From: Ichthyenterobacterium magnum | GTDB taxonomy: Bacteria > Bacteroidota > Bacteroidia > Flavobacteriales > Flavobacteriaceae | Assembly (NCBI RefSeq): GCF_003610635.1 | Contig: NZ_RAQJ01000001.1 | Coordinates: forward strand, 186,001 to 250,000 | DNA: 64,000 nucleotides | Direction of reading: 5' to 3' | Shown: one piece after another, positions 32,608-53,531 of the stretch | Numbering within the stretch: the stretch's first letter is position 1 | Layout: each line of letters begins with the position of its first letter | Notes under the pieces: model-generated | Seen by the model: only the letters and a program-made list of their open reading frames with translations | Told to the model about the DNA's origin: nothing | Databases searched by the model: none | Made by a program: the position numbers and the translations under genes

Positions 32608-34578
32608 ATGAGAAATTTATTAAAATTAACAGTTGCACTTGTATTCGTATTTGGTATCTATACAAGTTGTAACAATACAAAATCATCAGATAGTAAGTCT
32701 GGTGCCTTAGCTAGTAATATTGCAGAGAAAGTTTATGTTGCTCCTGGAGAACATGACGAGTTTTATGCCTTTATCTCTGGAGGTTACAGTGGTAATTTAA
32801 CCGTTTATGGTTTGCCATCTGGAAGAATGTTTAAAGAGATTCCTGTATTCTCACAATTCCCAACATCTGGATATGGTTACTCAGAAGAAACGAAACCCAT
32901 GTTAAACACGTCTCACGGGTTTGTGCCTTGGGGAGATTCTCACCATCCAGATATTTCTCAAACCAATGGCGAGATTGATGGACGTTTCATTTTTATTAAT
33001 GAAAATAATACACCAAGAATAGCAAAAATTGATTTAAAAACATTTGAAACAACCGAAATTATTGAAGTACCAAATAGTGCAGGTAACCACAGTTCGTCGT
33101 TTGTAACAGAAAACACAGAATATGTTGTTGCTGGTACACGTTTTTCTGTTCCAGTACCTCAAAGAGATATGCCTATTAGTGAATATAAAGGGAACTTTCA
33201 AGGTGCTTTATCTTTTATTTCTGTAGAGCCTGAACATGGTCATATGGATATCAAATTTCAAGTGCTAATGCCAGGTTTTAACTATGATTTAGCGCATCCT
33301 GGACGTGGAGCTTCTCATGGTTGGTTTTTCTTTTCAACCTATAATTCGGAAGAAGCAAGTACATTGTTAGAAGTAAATGCATCACAAAATGATAAAGATT
33401 TTATCGCTGCCATTAACTGGAAGAAAATTGAAGAATATGTTAATAATGGAGGCGGAAAAATGATGCCAGCAAATTATGCACATAACGTTTATGATGAAGC
33501 AACGCATACTGCCACCTCTACTATGAAAAAAGAAGTGCGCGTTGTAAATCCATCAGAAGTGCCAGGAGCAGTATTTTTACTACCAACACCTAAATCACCT
33601 CATGGTTGTGATGTAGATCCTTCAGGTGAGTATATTATTGGTAATGGAAAGTTATCGGCTAATTTAACTGTGCATTCATTTACTAAAATGTTAGATGCTA
33701 TTAAAAACGAAAAGTTTGATGGCGATGCATATGGGATTCCTATTCTTAAGTTTGAAGATGTTTTAGCAGGCTCAGTAGAGCAACCAGGTTTAGGGCCTTT
33801 ACATACAGAGTTTGACGATAAAGGAAATGCCTATACAACATTCTTTATATCTTCTGAAGTTGTAAAATGGAAGCTTGGCACTTGGGAAGTTTTAGATAGA
33901 CAACCTACATACTATTCTGTAGGTCACTTAACAATTCCTGGAGGAAACTCTAGAAAACCACAAGGAAAATACATGTTTGCAATGAACAAAATCACAAAAG
34001 ATCGTTATTTACCAACTGGTCCAGAACTAGAACACTCTGCTCAACTCTATGATATTTCTGGAGATAAAATGGAATTATTATTAGACTTCCCAACACATGG
34101 CGAACCACATTATGCAGCTGCAATGCGTGCTGACCTCATTAAAGAACGTTCTCAAAAAATATATAATCTAGAAGACAACAAACACCCTTATGCTGCTTTC
34201 GCTGATGCTGATACTAAAGTAGTAAGAAAAGGAAACGAAGTACATATATATATGACAACGATTAGAAGTCACTTCTCGCCAGATAATATTGAAGGCATTA
34301 AAGTTGGCGATAAAGTATATTTCCACGTTACAAATTTAGAACAAGATTTCGATGTACCGCATGGATTTGCAGTACTAGGACAAAACACGTCTGAGTTATT
34401 AATTATGCCTGGACAAACCAAAACCTCTATTTGGGAGCCTACTAAAGTTGGTGTATGGCCATTCTATTGTACAGATTTCTGTTCTGCTTTGCACCAAGAA
34501 ATGCAAGGTTACATTAGAGTATCTGCAGCACATGCTAACACACCATTAAAATGGTCGATGGGTGAAGACATTGAATAA
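32608..34578 (+). CDS. nosZ: Nitrous-oxide reductase, Sec-dependent (clade II-like) type
   Basis: The 656 residues form a complete NosZ, reducing N2O to N2. The N-terminus is a lipoprotein-type Sec signal (VFGIYTSCNN) rather than a twin-arginine signal, the mark of clade II enzymes. The seven-bladed propeller with CuZ histidines includes GASHGWFFFSTYN and PHGCDVDPSGEY. The C-terminal cupredoxin carries the CuA ligands: His585 (DVPHGFAV), Cys621, Trp/Asp region, Cys625, His629 and Met632 (CTDFCSALHQEM). It lies in the middle of the nos operon, followed by an intra-operon terminator. Confidence 0.98.
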   Translation: MRNLLKLTVALVFVFGIYTSCNNTKSSDSKSGALASNIAEKVYVAPGEHDEFYAFISGGYSGNLTVYGLPSGRMFKEIPVFSQFPTSGYGYSEETKPMLNTSHGFVPWGDSHHPDISQTNGEIDGRFIFINENNTPRIAKIDLKTFETTEIIEVPNSAGNHSSSFVTENTEYVVAGTRFSVPVPQRDMPISEYKGNFQGALSFISVEPEHGHMDIKFQVLMPGFNYDLAHPGRGASHGWFFFSTYNSEEASTLLEVNASQNDKDFIAAINWKKIEEYVNNGGGKMMPANYAHNVYDEATHTATSTMKKEVRVVNPSEVPGAVFLLPTPKSPHGCDVDPSGEYIIGNGKLSANLTVHSFTKMLDAIKNEKFDGDAYGIPILKFEDVLAGSVEQPGLGPLHTEFDDKGNAYTTFFISSEVVKWKLGTWEVLDRQPTYYSVGHLTIPGGNSRKPQGKYMFAMNKITKDRYLPTGPELEHSAQLYDISGDKMELLLDFPTHGEPHYAAAMRADLIKERSQKIYNLEDNKHPYAAFADADTKVVRKGNEVHIYMTTIRSHFSPDNIEGIKVGDKVYFHVTNLEQDFDVPHGFAVLGQNTSELLIMPGQTKTSIWEPTKVGVWPFYCTDFCSALHQEMQGYIRVSAAHANTPLKWSMGEDIE

Positions 34579-42676: not shown

Positions 42677-43111
42677 ATGTTATCAAAAAAACAAGCACGT
42701 GCTTTTTTTCTTGGAGGAACAGTAGTCACTTTTCTAATATTTATTGGGCTAACAATTTTCTCCTTTAGTAAAGCGAATGACCAATCAAATGAAGAAGGAA
42801 TTACTGAAGCTGTAGTACGCGGAAAGCAAATTTGGGAAGACAATAACTGCATGGGATGTCATACAATTATGGGAGAAGGCGCTTATTACGCTCCAGAACT
42901 TACAAAAGTAATAGAACGAAGAGGTATAGGTTACATTAAAGCCGTTTTAATGACTCCAGTAGACTGGGTGCCTAACGGAAGGAAAATGGTGGCTTATGGT
43001 TTTTCTGAAGAAGAAGCTGCAGACTTAATTGCCTTTTTTGACTGGATAGATGATATAGACTTAAATGGATTTGACACTGTAGTTTCACCATTAGCTAAAG
43101 ACAAAAACTAA
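42677..43111 (+). CDS. norC: Nitric oxide reductase cytochrome c subunit
   Basis: The 144 residues comprise one N-terminal membrane anchor (about 10-30) and a periplasmic monoheme domain with CMGCH (Cys58, Cys61, His62) and the axial Met104 in GRKMVAYGFS. The pattern HTIMGEGAYYAPELTKV is diagnostic of NorC. It passes electrons to NorB for reduction of 2 NO to N2O. norB starts 10 bp later. Confidence 0.96.
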   Translation: MLSKKQARAFFLGGTVVTFLIFIGLTIFSFSKANDQSNEEGITEAVVRGKQIWEDNNCMGCHTIMGEGAYYAPELTKVIERRGIGYIKAVLMTPVDWVPNGRKMVAYGFSEEEAADLIAFFDWIDDIDLNGFDTVVSPLAKDKN

Positions 43112-43121
43112 ACTAAAAATT

Positions 43122-44462
43122 ATGAAATATAAATCACAAAAAGTTGCCTATTGGTTTTTTGCCCTATCCATGTTATTATTCGGATTACAAATAGTGTATG
43201 GTTTTATAATGGGGTTTGCACATGCTGGAATGGATGGATTACATAGCTTTATTCCGTTTAATACTGCCAGAGCTGTTCATACAAACTTATTAGTTGTTTG
43301 GTTATTATCAGGTTTTATGGGAGCAGCTTATTACATTATCCCAGAAGAAGCCCAACGTGAATTAGTAAGTGTAAAACTCGCTTATGCTCAATTAATAAGT
43401 TTAGCTGTAGTAGGTGTAGTTGCTATTGTTGGTTACCATTTTAATTATTGGGAAGGACGTAAATTTTTAGAAATTCCAAGACCATTAGATTATTTAGTTG
43501 TTGTAAACGTACTCCTATTTTTAGGACTGATATTAGCAACCTTATTTAAAGGAAAAAGAAGAACCACAACAGCGTTGGTGCTTTCAATGGGATTACTATT
43601 TGCAGCCCTTTTATACTTACCAGGGATGCTTCCTTTTGATAGTCAAGTAAAAGACTCATTCTTTAGATGGTGGGTTGTACATCTATGGGTAGAAGGTGTT
43701 TGGGAATTAATAATGGGTGGTATTTTATCATTCCTATTAATAAAACTTACTGGTGTTGATAGAGAAGTTATTGAAAAATGGCTGTATGTGATTGTTGGAT
43801 TAACATTCCTATCTGGAGTATTAGGTACAGGCCACCACTACTATTATATTGGTGTTAACAAAATTTGGCTAATTGTAGGTGGAATATTCTCTGCATTAGA
43901 ACCATTAGCTTTCTTGGCTATGGCTCTATTCGCTGTAAATATGTACAGAAAAGGAGAAAAGAAACACCCAAACACTTTAGCTTTGTATTGGACGCTTGGC
44001 GCTGCAATAGTGTCCTTTATCGGCGCTGGCTTATTAGGATTTGCTCACACATTACCACAAACAAATTTATACACACACGGAACCTTAGTTACTGCAATGC
44101 ATGGTCACCTTGCATTTTGGGGTGCGTATGCTATGATTGTTTTAGCTATTATTAGTTACAGTTTGCCAAATATGACGGGAAGAAAACTATATCAAAGCAC
44201 ACGAGGTAGAGCAGCCTTTTGGCTGTCTAATATTGGCATGATTGGTATGACGGTTGCCTTTGGTGTAGCCGGAGTAGCTCAAGTATATTTAGAACGAAAA
44301 ATGAAGATGGAATTTATGGAAGTACAAAAAGAAATTGAAATCCATTTTATTGTCCTTATCATTTGTGCAACACTATTTATGACAGGTATTATTCTATACT
44401 TCGTTGATTTTTACAAACATGGTAAACCTAATGATGAAGCATTAGAAATAGTTACAAATTAA
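43122..44462 (+). CDS. norB: Nitric oxide reductase catalytic subunit (cNOR)
   Basis: This 446-residue, 12-helix protein has all cNOR ligands visible: His53 and His329 (low-spin heme b), His327 (heme b3), FeB ligands His187, His238, His239 and Glu191, plus the conserved Glu195 and Glu260. The segment VVHLWVEGVWELIMGG carries the FeB His/Glu pair. It reduces NO to N2O at the inner membrane with electrons from NorC. A terminator follows. Confidence 0.97.
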   Translation: MKYKSQKVAYWFFALSMLLFGLQIVYGFIMGFAHAGMDGLHSFIPFNTARAVHTNLLVVWLLSGFMGAAYYIIPEEAQRELVSVKLAYAQLISLAVVGVVAIVGYHFNYWEGRKFLEIPRPLDYLVVVNVLLFLGLILATLFKGKRRTTTALVLSMGLLFAALLYLPGMLPFDSQVKDSFFRWWVVHLWVEGVWELIMGGILSFLLIKLTGVDREVIEKWLYVIVGLTFLSGVLGTGHHYYYIGVNKIWLIVGGIFSALEPLAFLAMALFAVNMYRKGEKKHPNTLALYWTLGAAIVSFIGAGLLGFAHTLPQTNLYTHGTLVTAMHGHLAFWGAYAMIVLAIISYSLPNMTGRKLYQSTRGRAAFWLSNIGMIGMTVAFGVAGVAQVYLERKMKMEFMEVQKEIEIHFIVLIICATLFMTGIILYFVDFYKHGKPNDEALEIVTN

Positions 44463-44600: not shown

Positions 44601-44630
44601 ACATATTTGCTAACACATAGCATAACGAAA

Positions 44631-45404
44631 ATGAACACACCATATTACCAACCTATTCATAAAGAAATAGATGTTTTTGAACACACCTACAAATGTAAAA
44701 TTCCATTTTTACTAAAAGGTCCAACAGGAACTGGAAAGTCTCGGTTTATCGAGTTTATGGCACACAAATTAGAAACCAAACTCATTACCATTTCTTGTCA
44801 TGAAGAAACATCATCTACAGATTTAATTGGGCGATTTATTATAAAAGGAGCCGAAACCGTTTGGTTAGATGGTCCATTAACTACAGCTGTAAAAGAAGGT
44901 CATATTTTATATTTAGATGAAATTGCTGAAGCTAGGCCAGACGTTATTGTAGCTATACATTCTTTAACAGACCACAGACGCGAATTATTTATTGATAAAC
45001 TAGGCAAAACCATAAAAGCACACAAAGATTTTATGCTAGTTGCCTCATTTAATCCAGGTTATCAACGCGGATTTAAAGAGCTAAAACCTTCAACGAGACA
45101 ACGTTTTGTAGCTATTTCTTTTGATTATCCTGAAGCAAAAATTGAAACTCAAATTGTAGTTTCAGAAACAGGTATTGAAAAAGACACTGCCAAAAAGCTA
45201 GTAAATATTGCTACTAAAATTAGAAACCTAACAGAACTTGGTTTAACAGAAACGGTTTCAACACGATTATTGGTAGATGCTGCGCAATTAATTCATGTTG
45301 GTTTACCTAAACGATTAGCCGTACATGTTGCGGTAATTGAACCATTAACTGACGATTTAGAAGTTATACAAGCACTAAAAGATTTAAGCGATTTAATGAT
45401 ATAA
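44631..45404 (+). CDS. norQ: NorQ/CbbQ-type MoxR AAA+ ATPase
   Basis: I chose the ATG at 44631 (MNTPYYQPIHKEIDVFEHTY), giving 257 residues; an upstream TTG start adds eight residues. Walker A GPTGTGKS is at 30-37, Walker B is ILYLDEIAEA, and the sensor region ASFNPGYQRGFKELKPSTRQRF is typical of NorQ/CbbQ. NorQ works with NorD as a chaperone that inserts non-heme iron into NorB. norD follows after a 79-bp repeat. Confidence 0.94.
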   Translation: MNTPYYQPIHKEIDVFEHTYKCKIPFLLKGPTGTGKSRFIEFMAHKLETKLITISCHEETSSTDLIGRFIIKGAETVWLDGPLTTAVKEGHILYLDEIAEARPDVIVAIHSLTDHRRELFIDKLGKTIKAHKDFMLVASFNPGYQRGFKELKPSTRQRFVAISFDYPEAKIETQIVVSETGIEKDTAKKLVNIATKIRNLTELGLTETVSTRLLVDAAQLIHVGLPKRLAVHVAVIEPLTDDLEVIQALKDLSDLMI

Positions 45405-45406
45405 AA

Positions 45407-45470
45407 CAGTTGGCAGTCTCAGTTCTCAGCCCTAGAAAACACGGTATACTGAGACTGAGAACTGCAACTG
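45407..45470. repeat. Inverted repeat between norQ and norD
   Basis: CAGTTGGCAGTCTCAGTTCT(CAG) at 45407-45429 is nearly the reverse complement of 45449-45470 (CTGAGACTGAGAACTGCAAC(TG)). Each arm itself contains the direct unit CAGTCTCAGTTCTCAG with permuted order. The element fills the only gap between the two genes. Confidence 0.6.
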
Positions 45471-45483
45471 AACACTGAAAACT

Positions 45484-47259
45484 ATGTTTGAGTTCGAGCC
45501 AGACGAATATATATTTACCAAGTTTGCTTTCTTTTTTAAAAAACGTAGAATAGCTAAGCAAGCAGAGCTTCAACATGCTATTAATTTAAATGACATAAAG
45601 CCTAGGCTATCCATTTTTGCACGCGCTATTACTGGCGAGTCTATAGAAATTTTTGAAGCTGAACGCGAAGGTGGTTATAGAAATAATAATTTTTTCTTAC
45701 CAAGCAAGTTTTACGATTTTCAATCGGAAGAAGAAAACCTCTCGTTTTATTTATTTAGAGTGTTGTATTTATCTATTCAAAAGAGCCTGGATTTAAACTG
45801 GAATGATAATCAAGAGCATGAGACTTTAGAATCTCAACAAAAAGCAGAAGATACCTCAACAATTGTTTTAAAATCTTTATTTAAACAATTCCCAATTACA
45901 GAAAAATACCATCAACAATTTTTAAGCTTTTACGAAAACAAATCCACTAAAAAAAACCCAGCAGACTATTCATTTATTTATGGAAAATGGATGCGTAACG
46001 ACATCAAAGATAATTTAGTTGAACCGCTAGAAAACTTTACAGACCAAGTAAAAAAAGCAAATAAAGAGCAACCAAAAACCATTATAAAATCTAAAGCTGT
46101 TGAGGAAATTATATCGGTTCAAATAGACCAACAACAAATGCAAGATGCTGTACTACAACATCAGTTTGAAAAGGTTGAAACTGCCGAAGAGTTTGGTGGA
46201 AACTTTAAAGATATGGATGGTGATGACGATCTAGACGACCATTCTAATGCGCTAGACGAAGTTAACATAAAACATACCGTTCGAGTAGATGATACTGCGC
46301 ACTCCGTTTATCATACTGATTTTATTGAAAACACGACCATAGCCGAAAGTTCAGAAAGCGAAAGCAATAGTCATTTTATAACTTACGATGAATGGAATTA
46401 TGTAGACCGCAATTATAAAGAAGGCTTTTGCAAAGTGTATCCTAAAACACAATTAGCATCAGATGGTTCATACTACAAAAAAACACTTAACGATAACCGT
46501 TCTACTTTAGTTGGTTTACGTAAAATGCTAACTACAGTTAATAATAAATACCAGCAACAACGTAGACAATCTCAAGGTGAAGAATTAGATGTTGATGCAA
46601 TTACAGATTTATTTGTAGATGTAAAATCTGGACATACACCTTCAGAAAAAATATATCTTTCAAAACGTAAAAAAGAAAAAGATTTATCCATTCTACTATT
46701 ACTAGACATTAGTTTATCTAGTGATGGTTATGCAGCTGGAAATAGAGTTATAGATGTCGAAAAACAAGTCTCTATTCTTTTTGGCGAAATTTTAAATGAA
46801 TTTAATATTGATTTTTCAATCAATTGTTTTTATTCAAAAACTAGAAATCATTCTAGTTATTTAACTATTAAAGGTTTTGATGAAAATTGGGATACAGCAA
46901 AATATAAAGTTGGTGGTGTTGAGCCTAATGGTTATACACGTATTGGTACAGCTTTAAGACATTCTGGAGCCTTATTAGATAAACGAGACACCAAAAATAA
47001 ATGGGTCATTTTATTATCAGACGGCAAACCAAATGATTATGATAAGTACGAAGGAAAATACGGTATTAACGACGTAAAACAAGCTTTACGAGAGTTAAAT
47101 GAGCGTCAAATAAACTCATATGCGCTAGCTATTGAAGCGCAAGCAAAATACTATTTACCCCAAATGTTTGGGCAAAATCATTATCAAATTCTTACAAATC
47201 CTGTAGAGTTATTACAATCGTTAGTAAAACTATACGAAAAAATCAAACATCAAAGTTAA
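45484..47259 (+). CDS. norD: NorD, VWA-domain activation protein for nitric oxide reductase
   Basis: This 591-residue protein has a long variable N-terminal part and a C-terminal von Willebrand factor A domain with a complete MIDAS motif (D408-I-S410-L-S412) and ILLSDGKPNDYDKYEGKYG. NorD cooperates with the NorQ ATPase in FeB loading of NorB. The upstream gene is norQ. The next gene, a second NorC-like cytochrome, starts 4 bp after its stop, so the operon continues. Confidence 0.94.
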   Translation: MFEFEPDEYIFTKFAFFFKKRRIAKQAELQHAINLNDIKPRLSIFARAITGESIEIFEAEREGGYRNNNFFLPSKFYDFQSEEENLSFYLFRVLYLSIQKSLDLNWNDNQEHETLESQQKAEDTSTIVLKSLFKQFPITEKYHQQFLSFYENKSTKKNPADYSFIYGKWMRNDIKDNLVEPLENFTDQVKKANKEQPKTIIKSKAVEEIISVQIDQQQMQDAVLQHQFEKVETAEEFGGNFKDMDGDDDLDDHSNALDEVNIKHTVRVDDTAHSVYHTDFIENTTIAESSESESNSHFITYDEWNYVDRNYKEGFCKVYPKTQLASDGSYYKKTLNDNRSTLVGLRKMLTTVNNKYQQQRRQSQGEELDVDAITDLFVDVKSGHTPSEKIYLSKRKKEKDLSILLLLDISLSSDGYAAGNRVIDVEKQVSILFGEILNEFNIDFSINCFYSKTRNHSSYLTIKGFDENWDTAKYKVGGVEPNGYTRIGTALRHSGALLDKRDTKNKWVILLSDGKPNDYDKYEGKYGINDVKQALRELNERQINSYALAIEAQAKYYLPQMFGQNHYQILTNPVELLQSLVKLYEKIKHQS

Positions 47260-47263
47260 AGCT

Positions 47264-47698
47264 ATGCAGCAGACTAAATCTAAATATAACATTATAATTA
47301 TCGTAGTTTTAATTAGTATTTTTTGTATGTATAATGTTGTTATATATACTTCAAAAGAGTGTGCAGCTCCTATAAAATTAACTACAAAAGCATTAGAAGG
47401 TCAAAAAATATGGCAAAACAACAATTGTTGGTCATGCCACCAAATATATGGTCTTGGAGGTTATTTAGGTCCAGATTTAACAAACGTTTTTTCAAATCCA
47501 AATAAAGGAGAAAATTATATAAAAGCGTTTTTAAATAGTGGTGTTAAATCGATGCCAAAATTCAATTTTTCAGAAGCAGAAAAAGAAGCTCTAGTAGCTT
47601 TTTTACAACAAATAGATAGTACAGGGTACTATCCAAATAAAGAGGCCATTATTAAACCAAATGGTTGGGTAGAAATATTGTATAAAGATGAAAAATAA
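47264..47698 (+). CDS. Second NorC-like membrane-anchored cytochrome c
   Basis: The 144 residues comprise an N-terminal membrane helix (about 9-28) and a heme motif CWSCH (Cys55, Cys58, His59) followed by QIYGLGGYLGPDLTNVF, with probable axial Met97 (VKSMPKF). It has the size and plan of NorC but is clearly different from the canonical copy at 42677. It overlaps the next gene, a divergent NorB-like protein, by 11 bp, so the two proteins should form a complex. Confidence 0.88.
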   Translation: MQQTKSKYNIIIIVVLISIFCMYNVVIYTSKECAAPIKLTTKALEGQKIWQNNNCWSCHQIYGLGGYLGPDLTNVFSNPNKGENYIKAFLNSGVKSMPKFNFSEAEKEALVAFLQQIDSTGYYPNKEAIIKPNGWVEILYKDEK

Positions 47699-49028
47699 AA
47701 CAGCCTTACTTTTTTTAATCGCAGCACTTTACGTACTAATTTTAGGTACGCTTTTTGGCTTGTTAGCTTCCTTACAATATAGCCTTCCAGATTTTTTAAA
47801 GGAGCTAATCCCCTTAAACAAAATGAGACCATTGCATACCACAACGGTAATTTCGTGGATTATCCTTTCGGCTACAGGCAGTATTTACTTTTATATTTCT
47901 AAAGTAGAACATCTAAGCTTGTTTTCCTTTAAACTACAAAAAGTACATTTGGGCATTTTTATGTTAACAGGAATAGCTATTTATGTTTCTTTAGTCTTCG
48001 GAAAAATGGAAGGCAGAGAATACCTGGCTTTTACTCCAATATTAACGATTCCTATACTTTTAGGTTGGTTTTTATTTGGTATTAATTATTTTAAAACGAT
48101 TAGAAAACATGTAGTTAACTGGCCAATTTATTTTTGGATGTGGGGAACTGGAATTGTATTTATAATCTACCATTTATGCGAAGCGTATTTATGGCTAATT
48201 CCTTCCTTTAGAACACACTTTATTAAAGATACTATTGTGCAATGGAAATCTTATGGTTCTTTTGTTGGCTCTTGGAATATGTTGGTTTATGGAATAGCTA
48301 TTTATGTGATGTCAAAAATTAAAAACGATGTTTCTTTAGCTAGAGGTAAAAAGGTGTTTTTCTTTTATTTTTTAGGCTTATCCAACTTAATGTTGGGTTG
48401 GGCACATCATACTTATTTTGTTCCTACACTACCTTGGATTCGCTATCTCTCTTATGGTGTAAGTATGACAGAATGGATTTTATTGATTCATATTATTTAT
48501 AGCTGGAAAAAATCGCTTACAAAAAAAGAAAAACAAGATAACTCTATGGCTTATAAATTTTTAATGGCAGCCGATTTTTGGGTATTTATAAACCTAATAA
48601 TTGCCTTACTAATTTCTATTCCTGCTATCAATTTATTTACACATGGAACACATATAACAGTTGCTCATTCTATGGGAACAACAATAGGAATCAACACCTC
48701 AATTCTTTTAGCTTCTCTATTTTTTATAGTATCGAAAGTAAAAGGAGAGGTAATCATGTTTCAAAAATTAAAAAAGGTGTATTACGTATTTAACAGTTCA
48801 TTGTTAGTGTTTTTTAGTGTTTTGCTTTTTGCAGGAGCTAAAAAAGCAAATTGGATGTTTTTTGAAAAAAACACATCATTTTCTATGATGCAAGATTCTT
48901 TATACCTAACATATATTGCTTTTTTTGTTTTCGGACTAGTGCTAGCAACTTCCATTACCATACTAGCAATCACATTATTAAAAGTACTACATAAAGCATA
49001 CAAAAAAGAGGCAACTTCAACTTTATAA
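47688..49028 (+). CDS. Divergent NorB-like heme-copper-oxidase superfamily subunit I
   Basis: This 446-residue protein has 12 helices and aligns to NorB (43122) almost without gaps. It keeps His50 (low-spin heme ligand), His240-His241, Glu262 and His327 (equivalent to NorB His53, His238-239, Glu260, His327). At the FeB His187 position it has Gly190, at Glu191 Gly194, and at the second low-spin heme ligand His329 it has Met329. The active site is therefore not that of cNOR. It may bind NO, O2 or another substrate, or act as an electron-transfer or sensory module. The partner is the NorC-like gene just upstream; nadA follows after 10 bp. Confidence 0.82.
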   Translation: MKNKTALLFLIAALYVLILGTLFGLLASLQYSLPDFLKELIPLNKMRPLHTTTVISWIILSATGSIYFYISKVEHLSLFSFKLQKVHLGIFMLTGIAIYVSLVFGKMEGREYLAFTPILTIPILLGWFLFGINYFKTIRKHVVNWPIYFWMWGTGIVFIIYHLCEAYLWLIPSFRTHFIKDTIVQWKSYGSFVGSWNMLVYGIAIYVMSKIKNDVSLARGKKVFFFYFLGLSNLMLGWAHHTYFVPTLPWIRYLSYGVSMTEWILLIHIIYSWKKSLTKKEKQDNSMAYKFLMAADFWVFINLIIALLISIPAINLFTHGTHITVAHSMGTTIGINTSILLASLFFIVSKVKGEVIMFQKLKKVYYVFNSSLLVFFSVLLFAGAKKANWMFFEKNTSFSMMQDSLYLTYIAFFVFGLVLATSITILAITLLKVLHKAYKKEATSTL

Positions 49029-49038
49029 ATCATTATAA

Positions 49039-49965
49039 ATGACATTACAAGAAAAAATAATAAAGCTTAAAAAAGAGAAAAACGCAGTGATTTTAGCACA
49101 CTATTATCAAGAAACTGCGATACAAGATGTAGCAGATTATGTTGGAGATAGTTTAGGTTTGTCGCAACAAGCAGCAAAAACTAATGCAGATATTATTGTA
49201 TTTGCTGGAGTTCACTTTATGGCAGAAACTGCTAAGATTTTGAGTCCAAATAAAACAGTGGTTTTACCAGATTTAAAAGCTGGTTGCTCATTAGCAGACT
49301 CATGTCCTGCAGATGCTTTTGAGAATTTTGTAAAAGCACATCCAAACCATACAGTTATTACTTATGTAAATTGTAGTGCTCAAGTAAAAGCTTTAACAGA
49401 CATTGTTTGTACATCATCAAACGCACTTAAAATTGTAACTTCTATTCCAAAAGATAAACCAATTATTTTTGCTCCAGATAGAAATTTAGGAAAATACATC
49501 ATTAAGCAAACAGGACGAGATATGTTGCTTTGGGATGGAAGTTGTGTGGTTCATGAAGCGTTTTCAATTGAAAAATTATTAAACCTTCATAAAAAATATC
49601 CTAACTATGTAATTATTGCGCATCCAGAATCTGAAGAGCATATTTTAAAAGTGGCAACTTATGTTGGTTCAACTTCTGGAATGATTAATTACGTAAAAGC
49701 ACATCAAGACAAAAGTTTTATTGTTGCAACCGAAGCAGGAATTTTATATAAAATGCAACAAGAAGTGCCTAACACAGAATTAGTTCCTGCTCCAGCAAAA
49801 GAAGACAATACTTGTGCTTGTAGTGAATGTGCTTTTATGAAAGTAAACACATTGCAAAAACTTTACGATTGTTTACTAAATGAAAGTCCACAAATTAAAG
49901 TACCAAAAGCGATTAGAGAAAAAGCATTGATTCCAATTAATCGCATGCTAGAACTATCAAAATAA
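49039..49965 (+). CDS. nadA: Quinolinate synthase
   Basis: The 308 residues form a full-length NadA, condensing iminoaspartate with dihydroxyacetone phosphate to quinolinate. The family segments [34 protein letters not shown] and the Cys residues of [22 protein letters not shown] and [11 protein letters not shown] are visible; three Cys hold the catalytic [4Fe-4S] cluster. That cluster is sensitive to O2 and NO. The gene sits inside the nor operon between the NorB-like gene and nadB. Confidence 0.96.
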
Positions 49966-49966
49966 T

Positions 49967-51520
49967 ATGATAAAAACAAATTATTTAGTTATAGGTTCTG
50001 GAGTTGCTGGATTAACATTTGCAGTTAAAATTGCTGAAAAATTTCCAGAAAAAACTATAATCATAATTACCAAAGACAACGAAAACGAATCTAACACCAA
50101 ATACGCTCAAGGAGGCGTTGCTATAGTATTAGATACAGAAGAAGATTCGTTTAAAAAACACATACAAGATACGCTTATTGCTGGAGATGGTTTATGCGAC
50201 AAATCTGTAGTAGAAATGGTTATAAAAGAAGGCCCAAAACGCTTAAAAGAACTAATAGTTTGGGGAGCTAATTTTGATTTAGATGCTGAAGGGAACTTTG
50301 ATTTAGGTAAAGAAGGTGGACACTCTGAATATCGTGTGGTACATCATAAAGACATTACTGGCTTTGAGGTTTTGCGTGCATTATTAAATCGTGTACATCA
50401 ATTAAAAAACATAACCGTATTACCACATCATTTTGCTATTGATTTAATTACAGAACACCAATTAGAAACACCAATCCCTAATGATTTATCCTGTTATGGA
50501 GCTTATGTGTTAAATGAAAAATCTGGAAAAGTTTTAACCATTCAAGCAGAACGTACTTTGTTAGCTTCTGGTGGAATTGGTAGTGTTTATGGGCATACAA
50601 CCAATCCTGTAATTGCAACAGGAGACGGAATTGCAATGGCTTACAGAGCAAAGGCACAAATAAAGGATATGGAATTTATTCAGTTTCACCCAACAGCTAC
50701 GTATAATCCTAAAGGAGGTACTTCTTTTTTAATTTCGGAAGCAGTTAGAGGTTTTGGTGCTTATTTAAGAAACAAAAAAGGCTATCGATTTATGCTTGAT
50801 TATGATGAGCGAGTCGAATTGGCATCAAGAGATATTGTATCACAAAGCATAGATAATGAATTAAAAAAAACTGGAGACACCCATGTATTTTTAGATTGTA
50901 CACATCTTGATATTAAAAGTTTTAAAAAACATTTCCCTAATATATATCAAGAGTGTTTAGATAAACATATTAATGTTAAAAAAGATTGGATTCCTGTAGT
51001 TCCAGCAGCACATTATTTATGTGGAGGAATTGTTGTTGATAAGCACGGAAAAACATCTATAAACAACCTATTTGCCTGTGGAGAATGTACTAGAACAGGT
51101 TTGCATGGAGCAAATAGATTGGCTTCAAATTCGTTATTAGAAGCTTTGGTTTATGCTCATAATATTTACAACTATCAATGTAATCATCAAACAAAACCAT
51201 TAAGTTTTATAATACCAAAATGGAATGATAAAGGCACAAATATACCTAAAGAGCATGTTTTAATAACTCACAATCTTAATCAACTTCAAGCATTAATGCG
51301 CGATTATGTTGGTATTGTAAGAAGTAATGACAGACTAACAAAAGCCATTGCACATTTAGATTTTATTTATAACGAAGTTGAAGAATTATACAAAAAATCT
51401 AAAATTGATACATCGTTATGTGAATTAAGAAACATGATTAATATTGCTCACCTTATTATTAGTCAATCTCTAGAACGTAAAGAAAACAAAGGAGGCTACT
51501 ATAATATTGATAATTTATAA
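49967..51520 (+). CDS. nadB: L-aspartate oxidase
   Basis: The 517 residues contain the FAD-binding GSGVAGLTFAVKIAEKFPEK at the N-terminus, NTKYAQGGVAIVLD, EFIQFHPTATY and the capping-domain signature CGGIVVDKHGKTSINNLFACGE. It oxidises aspartate to iminoaspartate using O2 or fumarate, supplying NadA. It starts 1 bp after nadA and is followed directly by the norE-like gene. Confidence 0.96.
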   Translation: MIKTNYLVIGSGVAGLTFAVKIAEKFPEKTIIIITKDNENESNTKYAQGGVAIVLDTEEDSFKKHIQDTLIAGDGLCDKSVVEMVIKEGPKRLKELIVWGANFDLDAEGNFDLGKEGGHSEYRVVHHKDITGFEVLRALLNRVHQLKNITVLPHHFAIDLITEHQLETPIPNDLSCYGAYVLNEKSGKVLTIQAERTLLASGGIGSVYGHTTNPVIATGDGIAMAYRAKAQIKDMEFIQFHPTATYNPKGGTSFLISEAVRGFGAYLRNKKGYRFMLDYDERVELASRDIVSQSIDNELKKTGDTHVFLDCTHLDIKSFKKHFPNIYQECLDKHINVKKDWIPVVPAAHYLCGGIVVDKHGKTSINNLFACGECTRTGLHGANRLASNSLLEALVYAHNIYNYQCNHQTKPLSFIIPKWNDKGTNIPKEHVLITHNLNQLQALMRDYVGIVRSNDRLTKAIAHLDFIYNEVEELYKKSKIDTSLCELRNMINIAHLIISQSLERKENKGGYYNIDNL

Positions 51521-52352: not shown

Positions 52353-53531
52353 CTATTTTTTAAATAGATTCAATAAAATAAATAAGATACCTAAAGGTAA
52401 TAATAAACTAAAGAGGAATAGTAACAAGTAATAATTTGGAAGTATTTCGTAGCCAAAGTAATAGTTACAACCTTGAACGAGTAAAGCTGTTTCAGTTAAA
52501 ACAAATCCTAAAATAAAACAATAAACACCTATATATAAGGTTTTAAAATAGTTTACCAATTTGCTTTGCAAAATAAAAGCAAATAAAAATCCAGTAATAA
52601 CACCTAACATGAGTAAGTGAATAAAACCAATTACAAAATTACGATGCTCATAAACCACTTGAGAAAATTCTGGTAAAATTGAAACTAGTTGAAATACAAC
52701 TTTTAGCACAAAACAAAACATAGCAAAACTGTATATGCAAACAATTAGTTTAGATTTTTTATCAATTAAAGTATATAGTTTAGTCCTTATAAGTTTAATA
52801 AAAGTAAAGAGTGCAGCAAGTTGTAAAACAACACCAATACTATTAATCCATAACAATACGTTATGAGGTGCAAACCATTGTATTGGTAAAGCAAAAGTAA
52901 AAACTGTTGATGCAACTAATACACTAAAAAATTGCCTAAACAGTTTAGAATCTTTAATTTTTAGTAGATGAAAGAAAACAGTAATAATCGCTATTAAAAA
53001 CCAACCATTAAATTGAAAATGTAAAAAGAATTGAATCGCAATTTGGTAAAATGCTGAAGCTTGCCCAAGCATTGAAACAGCTGGACCTAAACACCAAACA
53101 CCAAATGTAGATAGTAACATAAAAAACAGCGATGCTTTTAGTAAAATACTAGTTACAATAGATTCCGTTTTGTTGTGTGTCCATATAAGATACACAAAGT
53201 AATAACTACAAAAAATATGTAAGGTAGAAAATGAAATAGAAAATGCTGCATACCCTTGAATAGGAAAACTTAGCATCATACCAACAACAGCAAATTCGGT
53301 TACCCAAAATAAACGGTTATATATTGGTTTTTTATCAGGAATAAAATAATGAACAATAAGTGTATATAGCATGAGGTAAACCCAACCCAACATAGCAACA
53401 TGCGAGTGTGCATGTGTTAAAAACCTGTAATTCAAACCAATATCACCTATAGACGAATACCGTAACACCAAACCCATTACAGCAGCAATTAAAAAATTAA
53501 TCAGGCAAACTATTACAAGCTTTTTAGGCAT
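52353..53531 (-). CDS. Twelve-helix membrane protein, heme-copper oxidase I/NnrS-like
   Basis: This 392-residue protein has about 12 helices. The first periplasmic edge carries RFLTHAHSHVAMLGWVYL (His40, His42, His44); helix 5-6 has FLHFQFNGWFL (His171) and a later helix GFIHLLMLGVITGF. Histidines at helix ends with Gly-Trp neighbours recall HCO subunit I-like and NnrS families, whose members bind heme or copper. The gene is convergent with the nor operon and follows deoD by 19 bp. No precise family name is justified. Confidence 0.65.
   Translation of the reverse strand: MPKKLVIVCLINFLIAAVMGLVLRYSSIGDIGLNYRFLTHAHSHVAMLGWVYLMLYTLIVHYFIPDKKPIYNRLFWVTEFAVVGMMLSFPIQGYAAFSISFSTLHIFCSYYFVYLIWTHNKTESIVTSILLKASLFFMLLSTFGVWCLGPAVSMLGQASAFYQIAIQFFLHFQFNGWFLIAIITVFFHLLKIKDSKLFRQFFSVLVASTVFTFALPIQWFAPHNVLLWINSIGVVLQLAALFTFIKLIRTKLYTLIDKKSKLIVCIYSFAMFCFVLKVVFQLVSILPEFSQVVYEHRNFVIGFIHLLMLGVITGFLFAFILQSKLVNYFKTLYIGVYCFILGFVLTETALLVQGCNYYFGYEILPNYYLLLFLFSLLLPLGILFILLNLFKK

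Follow-up and report, generated by a model that had tools for sequence, protein, structure and literature searches.

The gene pair norC2-norB2 of Ichthyenterobacterium magnum, which lies in the 64,000-nucleotide stretch of DNA analysed here as a whole (the window; Table 1), encodes a distinct and conserved haem-copper oxidase (HCO) family, mainly of Bacteroidota, that possibly acts on NO, as a scavenger, through rebuilt metal sites. The invariance of its ligand changes down to about 40% identity, together with low dN/dS, is far beyond chance.

Loss of metal and haem ligands in a conserved gene pair

The reading frames of norC2 and norB2 are both intact; they overlap by 11 bp, as a previous reading made from the sequence alone had described, and the CxxCH motif and Met97 that it noted in the NorC-like cytochrome were invariant in 31 relatives. 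All on the + strand, norD lies 4 bp upstream of norC2 and nadA 10 bp downstream of norB2. NorB2 scored 93 bits against Pfam COX1 (cut-off 34.8), gave a weak NCBIfam match to the cbb3 subunit CcoN, and was 21-22% identical to NorB1, the canonical NorB encoded at 43122; the solved structures closest to it by sequence were the cNOR NorB chains 4xyd and 3o0r, and no others.

Table 1. Positions in the window of the norC2-norB2 pair, its presumed ligand residues and neighbouring genes
Feature	Coordinates	Strand	Basis and remarks
nosZ (clade II), head of island	32722..34524	+	G000:C1:218722-220524; nos genes adjoin
norC1-norB1, canonical cNOR of same strain	42677..44462	+	ORF, Pfam; full ligand set
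norQ-norD, FeB-insertion chaperones of cNOR	44607..47259	+	ORF, Pfam; NorQ tracks cNOR, not norB2
norC2, membrane-anchored mono-haem cytochrome c subunit, 144 aa	47264..47698	+	ORF, Pfam Cytochrome_CBB3/Cytochrom_C
Haem c attachment motif CWSCH (C55-H59) of NorC2	47426..47440	+	Sequence; C55, C58, H59, Q60 invariant, 31 relatives
Met97 codon of NorC2, presumed distal haem c ligand	47552..47554	+	Invariant, 31 relatives
norB2, 12-TM haem-copper-oxidase-type subunit, 446 aa	47688..49028	+	ORF, Pfam COX1
His50, first ligand of low-spin haem b, retained	47835..47837	+	83/83
Helix VI segment Q185-N197 (QWKSYGSFVGSWN), altered; expected site of FeB His and Glu	48240..48278	+	Alignment, 83 sequences
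His240-His241, helix VII metal-ligand pair, retained	48405..48410	+	83/83 each
Glu262, equivalent of P. aeruginosa NorB Glu280	48471..48473	+	83/83
Family-specific additional His322, five positions N-terminal to haem b3 ligand; cNOR has Leu	48651..48653	+	81/83
His327, proximal haem b3 ligand, retained	48666..48668	+	82/83
Met329, replaces second low-spin-haem His	48672..48674	+	Met 82/83 in family, His 19/19 in cNOR
nadA-nadB, NAD biosynthesis	49039..51520	+	ORF; directly downstream of norB2

A three-sequence alignment, used in one scan of a species-genome collection, returned 113 relatives of NorB2, nearly all from Bacteroidota with a few from proteobacterial MAGs, and 80 of these were kept; residue counts refer to 83 NorB2 sequences with identity down to about 40%. 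In 76 of the 80 loci (by automatic calls, with more recognised by eye in L090 and L094) norC2 accompanied norB2, just upstream of it. A plasmid search gave matches of about 25% identity only, which are probably ordinary NOR subunits, and no clear NorB2 member; a phylum-wide search around one proteobacterial carrier found no second NorB2 carrier in 299 genomes.

Six histidines form the signature of the haem-copper oxidoreductase superfamily (PMC3413370), and NorB2 has kept four of them, the helix-VI His and the second haem b His being missing. The sequence-only reading had listed His50, His240-His241, Glu262 and His327 as retained and the low-spin ligand His329 as replaced by Met329, and the family alignment bore it out on each, with the retained residues present in 82-83 of the 83 sequences and Met at position 329 in 82. 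Within helix VI, Q185, W186, K187, G190, G194, W196 and N197 were each found in 83/83, and neither His nor Glu occurred at residues 185-197 in any of the 83 relatives. The statement that the FeB His had become Gly190 and the FeB Glu Gly194 thus stood as to the loss (83/83), while the residues that lie opposite depended on the gap: a one-residue gap in the NorB2-NorB1 alignment sets G190 and G194 against the FeB His and Glu, whereas the ungapped family alignment sets the FeB His against the variable Y/N/T/G189, the FeB Glu against V/T193, and the channel Glu of cNOR against the invariant N197. The loss of the FeB His and Glu is independent of gap placement. Residue conservation also supported the proposal that the metal site holds two rather than three histidines and that the low-spin haem may have His/Met coordination.

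The NorB2 column that matches Glu135 of P. aeruginosa NorB, found through the alignment to solved relatives, was Glu in 83/83. We take Glu135 to be the calcium bridge to NorC; given this conservation and the invariant haem motif of NorC2, the cytochrome interface of NorB2 looks kept. The second acidic NorD-docking residue was V/I in most NorB2 members.

The 21% identity to NorB1 and the ligand loss, taken alone, would fit degeneration of a norCB copy or two ORFs arising by chance, an explanation that we consider to have next to no probability, as the pair is conserved over 83 genomes with intact frames and invariant replacement residues, and dN/dS between pairs of close species was 0.024-0.080 for NorB2, compared with about 0.026 for NorB1. 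Residue invariance and dN/dS thus refute pseudogene decay and chance alike and argue that NorC2-NorB2 is a conserved family; the random decay that the sequence-only reading had named as a possible outcome was not seen among the relatives, in which the ligand changes were invariant.

Relationship to other haem-copper oxidases

We placed NorB2 in a maximum-likelihood tree of 48 sequences, in which cNOR and qNOR were modestly sampled, and sNOR- and gNOR-type sequences, recognised by motif alone, were the only representatives of the NORs related to the B family. The NorB2 sequences formed a single clade (support 100/99) lying within none of the sampled NOR or oxidase families, with a group of cNOR, qNOR and a NOD-like protein as its sister (98/96), followed by the C family; A- and B-type sequences were distant. 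NorB2 grouped with the C/cNOR/qNOR side at 100/99, and the C family itself was set off at 100/98. Given the length of the joining branches and the modest number of cNOR and qNOR sequences, the sister position of NorB2 is less sure than its separateness. Tree and ligands together ruled out membership of NorB2 in cNOR, qNOR, NOD or the C family.

The cofactor-free AlphaFold2 model of NorB2 (pLDDT 89.2, pTM 0.92) had cNOR 4xyd as its best fold match (TM 0.86, Z 41.5), with cbb3 CcoN a close second (Z about 40), and showed a break in helix VI at 188-189, beside the missing ligand position. In the control model of NorB1 helix VI was unbroken; because that model was of low confidence (pLDDT 67, from a shallow alignment), we regard the break as suggestive. 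As NorB2 is homologous to the superfamily by fold and sequence but lacks the full histidine sextet, it is a divergent HCO branch and not a standard member.

Like NorC2-NorB2, cNOR consists of two subunits, a NorC-type cytochrome c and a 12-TM NorB-type protein, and H50, the HH pair, E262 and H327 are common to both; NorB2, however, lacks the helix-VI FeB His and the FeB Glu, has Asn at the equivalent of Glu215 and Met for a haem His, and falls in a separate clade, with NorQ present only where cNOR is also present. On the same side of the HCO tree, qNOR is active without NorQD (PMC9976466), but it carries a fused, haem-less cytochrome domain and retains the six His and the Glu. The fold of the C-family cbb3 subunit CcoN is similar to that of NorB2, but all six His are kept. 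The relatives gNOR, sNOR, eNOR, nNOR and bNOR, HCOs with altered active sites that are proposed or shown to reduce NO, have been placed with the B family, sNOR, gNOR and nNOR as proposed families (PMC11388526); NorB2, on the cNOR/qNOR side with its NorC partner, should therefore be none of them.

The nearest described oddity to NorB2 is NOD, a putative NO dismutase related to qNOR. In this NOR-side haem-copper protein, too, one FeB His and the catalytic Glu have been lost (His to Asn and Glu to Gln; PMC3413370). NOD is, however, a single large subunit with no haem c, and the copy examined (L122) keeps the helix-VI His, whereas NorB2, which is partnered by a cytochrome c, loses a different His and is also altered at a haem b ligand. 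Among the open papers searched, a set that did not take in the 2024 PNAS survey of NO-reducing HCOs, we found no description of a family of the NorC2-NorB2 type, and the family may be present, unnamed, in the alignment of that survey.

Other divergent HCOs were observed as well. A Saprospiraceae MAG encodes, upstream of norC2-norB2, a 781-aa NOD-like protein with His-Asn in place of the His-His metal pair (L111:1087-3429; also L122), and a Bacteroidetes MAG that also carries norB2 has a gNOR-type HCO in which the helix-VI His is Asp (WWGLDLIADG; L119). Two Flavobacteriales genomes with NirS have sNOR-type HCOs with a GHSAQQIN motif (L116, G079:C18:158500-162000; L125, G080:C32:23000-28000), in which HFK stands for HFH, so that Lys replaces the second low-spin-haem His. 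A deep C-family-like HCO branch (GYYMHQGVG, IGTHHF, HSHL) was represented by ORFs of 584-646 aa in two norB2-bearing genomes (L117, L118).

Gene neighbourhood and distribution

In the window, nosZ and accessory genes are followed downstream by norC1-norB1-norQ-norD-norC2-norB2-nadA-nadB-norE. The sequence-only reading had placed the pair inside the nor operon, and this holds for the window and for about 20 other loci in which norC2-norB2 lies within a cNOR operon; it does not hold as the usual home of the pair, which across Bacteroidota is associated with clade II nosZ and anaerobic genes, for the most part where no cNOR is present. Its location in cNOR operons would fit a part in assembling or regulating the neighbouring cNOR or NosZ, which we consider very improbable because cNOR was absent from 30 of 50 NorB2-bearing genomes and from 57 of the 62 carriers in a class-wide sample, and nosZ from about 15%. 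A role of NorB2 as a cNOR accessory was rejected by its occurrence without cNOR.

The frequent neighbours of norB2 include nadA/nadB (in 40 of 80 loci, often directly downstream), Rrf2- and Crp-type regulators, Ric/hemerythrin, a globin and nos genes, as well as class III and class II ribonucleotide reductases, a tryptophanase-type lyase and proline dehydrogenase. A neighbour cluster labelled HemN was rejected as such, being the tryptophanase-type beta-eliminating lyase. We also observed that nadA-nadB, embedded in the nor operon of the window, recurs beside norC2-norB2 across Bacteroidota. Also encoded in the window (52353-53531, - strand) is a membrane protein of 392 aa whose His-rich N-terminus is HCO/NnrS-like; it matched no Pfam or NCBIfam entry at the thresholds applied, and its relatives lie near norB2 in 21/80 loci. 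A family of about 590-640 aa with no Pfam match, exemplified by L067:17540-19297 (- strand), was present in 23/80.

Distribution was evaluated in 296 evenly sampled Bacteroidia genomes, of which 62 carried NorB2, 106 clade II NosZ and 16 cNOR. Environmental Bacteroidota that can be grown in the laboratory, such as Xanthomarina and Flavobacterium saliperosum, are among the carriers of the pair. NosZ was found in 53 of the 62 NorB2 carriers versus 53 of the 234 others (Fisher odds ratio 20, p about 9e-20, phylogeny ignored), and in 13 of the 53 genomes with both genes a comparison of coordinates placed norB2 and nosZ on one contig, no more than about 16 kb apart. The frequency of cNOR was 5/62 in NorB2 carriers versus 11/234 in the others (p 0.34, phylogeny ignored). 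In locus L134 a single strand carries norC2-norB2-cytochrome c-fasciclin-nosZ-nosL-nosD-nosF-nosY, in L136 two crp genes, norC2-norB2 and a gene for proline dehydrogenase come after the nos operon on the same strand, and the chain nosZ...nosY-fasciclin-RNR-norC2-norB2-nadA-nadB recurs in L135, L137 and L151.

These associations bear on the main rival to the NO-scavenging proposal, namely that the complex is a non-catalytic electron conduit, in which the haem b of NorB2 would accept electrons from menaquinol, and NorC2 would hand them on through a periplasmic cytochrome c to NosZ or other reductases. The strong nosZ association (53/62 versus 53/234), the co-linearity with nos genes on one strand in L134 and L136, the loss of catalytic ligands and the conserved cytochrome c partner all agree with it. 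We nevertheless find it rather unlikely, since the invariant His240, His241 and Glu262 and the kept haem b3 ligand would be needless in a plain conduit, the nos clusters of one genus persist without norC2-norB2, and about 15% of members are without nosZ. The five nosZ islands that lack NorB2 (L140-L144, from genomes of that genus) are otherwise intact, which argues that NosZ does not depend on NorB2.

An enzyme census of 50 NorB2-bearing genomes chosen from the loci, with NOR types judged by length, score and motif, found cNOR in 20 and qNOR, sNOR-type, gNOR-type or NOD-like proteins in some others; none of these haem-copper NO reductases was found in the remaining 22 of the 50. NOR and nitrite reductase co-occurred across this set (both in 21 genomes, NOR only in 7, Nir only in 2, neither in 20; p about 3e-6), and NrfA was found in 2/51 genomes. 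Of the 22 carriers without NOR, nirK or nirS was present in 2 and nosZ in 17, suggesting that NorB2 follows N2O reduction and not NO production. NorB2 as a respiratory NOR substitute in cNOR-less denitrifiers is therefore unsupported, nirK/nirS being missing there too and nrfA rare. The genome of the window (G000) itself has cNOR, NosZ and NorB2, whereas NirK, NirS and NrfA gave no match in it at the thresholds applied.

NorQ, the partner of NorD in loading FeB into cNOR (PMC9976466), was found in all 20 cNOR genomes of this set versus none of the 30 cNOR-less ones, and NorB2 thus seems not to need this FeB chaperone. Occurrence without cNOR and Nir, together with the confinement of NorQ to cNOR genomes, indicates that NorC2-NorB2 is not the respiratory cNOR; the earlier suggestion that the pair has a job other than that of NorCB gained support from this occurrence, from its separate clade and from purifying selection.

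It is likewise improbable that NorB2 is an NO reductase that, even with these ligands lost, still binds FeB in the standard position and works by the standard mechanism. Its nearest relatives are cNOR and qNOR, and the gNOR-type protein of L119 shows a helix-VI His replaced by Asp in a kind of family proposed to reduce NO (PMC11388526, PMC8756737); yet the FeB His, FeB Glu and channel Glu are gone in 83/83, most cNOR-less members are without nitrite reductase, and NorQ is absent where cNOR is absent, although NorQD is dispensable for qNOR as well (PMC9976466). Two conserved NOR glutamates are reported to be essential for cNOR activity (Butland 2001, as listed in PMC9976466), so that NO reduction by the known mechanism is unlikely in NorB2.

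A possible role in NO scavenging

We propose tentatively that NorC2-NorB2 keeps the electron wiring of cNOR, with electrons passing from the NorC2 cytochrome c to low-spin haem b and on to haem b3, and that both metal sites are rebuilt. The low-spin haem b would be held by His50 and Met329 and haem b3 by His327, and the non-haem site, if it binds metal, would use His240, His241 and perhaps Glu262 as a two-His-one-carboxylate site, loaded without NorQ/NorD. We think the complex catalytic and not vestigial because the site residues H240, H241, E262 and H327 are strictly kept; with NOR-like wiring, its chemistry would necessarily be different.

The nos and anaerobic islands, the NO-responsive regulators and repair genes nearby, and the many carriers without another haem-copper NOR make NO, or a close relative of it, the most likely substrate, with electrons coming from NorC2. 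The complex would then scavenge NO in N2O-respiring cells and would not be the respiratory NOR of denitrification. Against this stand the nosZ link, which ignores phylogeny, the five intact nosZ islands without norC2-norB2, and the roughly 15% of carriers in which nosZ is missing. In a broader form, which we put forward with some doubt, haem b3 and a two-His-one-Glu non-haem site, with a His/Met low-spin haem, might carry out a novel reaction on NO, another nitrogen oxide or O2 in N2O-respiring Bacteroidota, the phylum that contributes most N2O terminators.

Automatic annotation may mistake NorB2 for norB or for a cbb3 oxidase, and estimates of NO-reducing potential would then be distorted. 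Bacteroidota are reported to make up about half of N2O-terminator genomes (PMC12569097), and NorB2 was present in about a fifth of the sampled Bacteroidia, mostly nosZ carriers, so what NorB2 does matters for the physiology of a major N2O sink. As a widespread and strictly conserved family that breaks, at two different metal sites, the six-histidine signature by which haem-copper oxidases and NO reductases have been defined, it is a natural experiment on the purpose of those sites.
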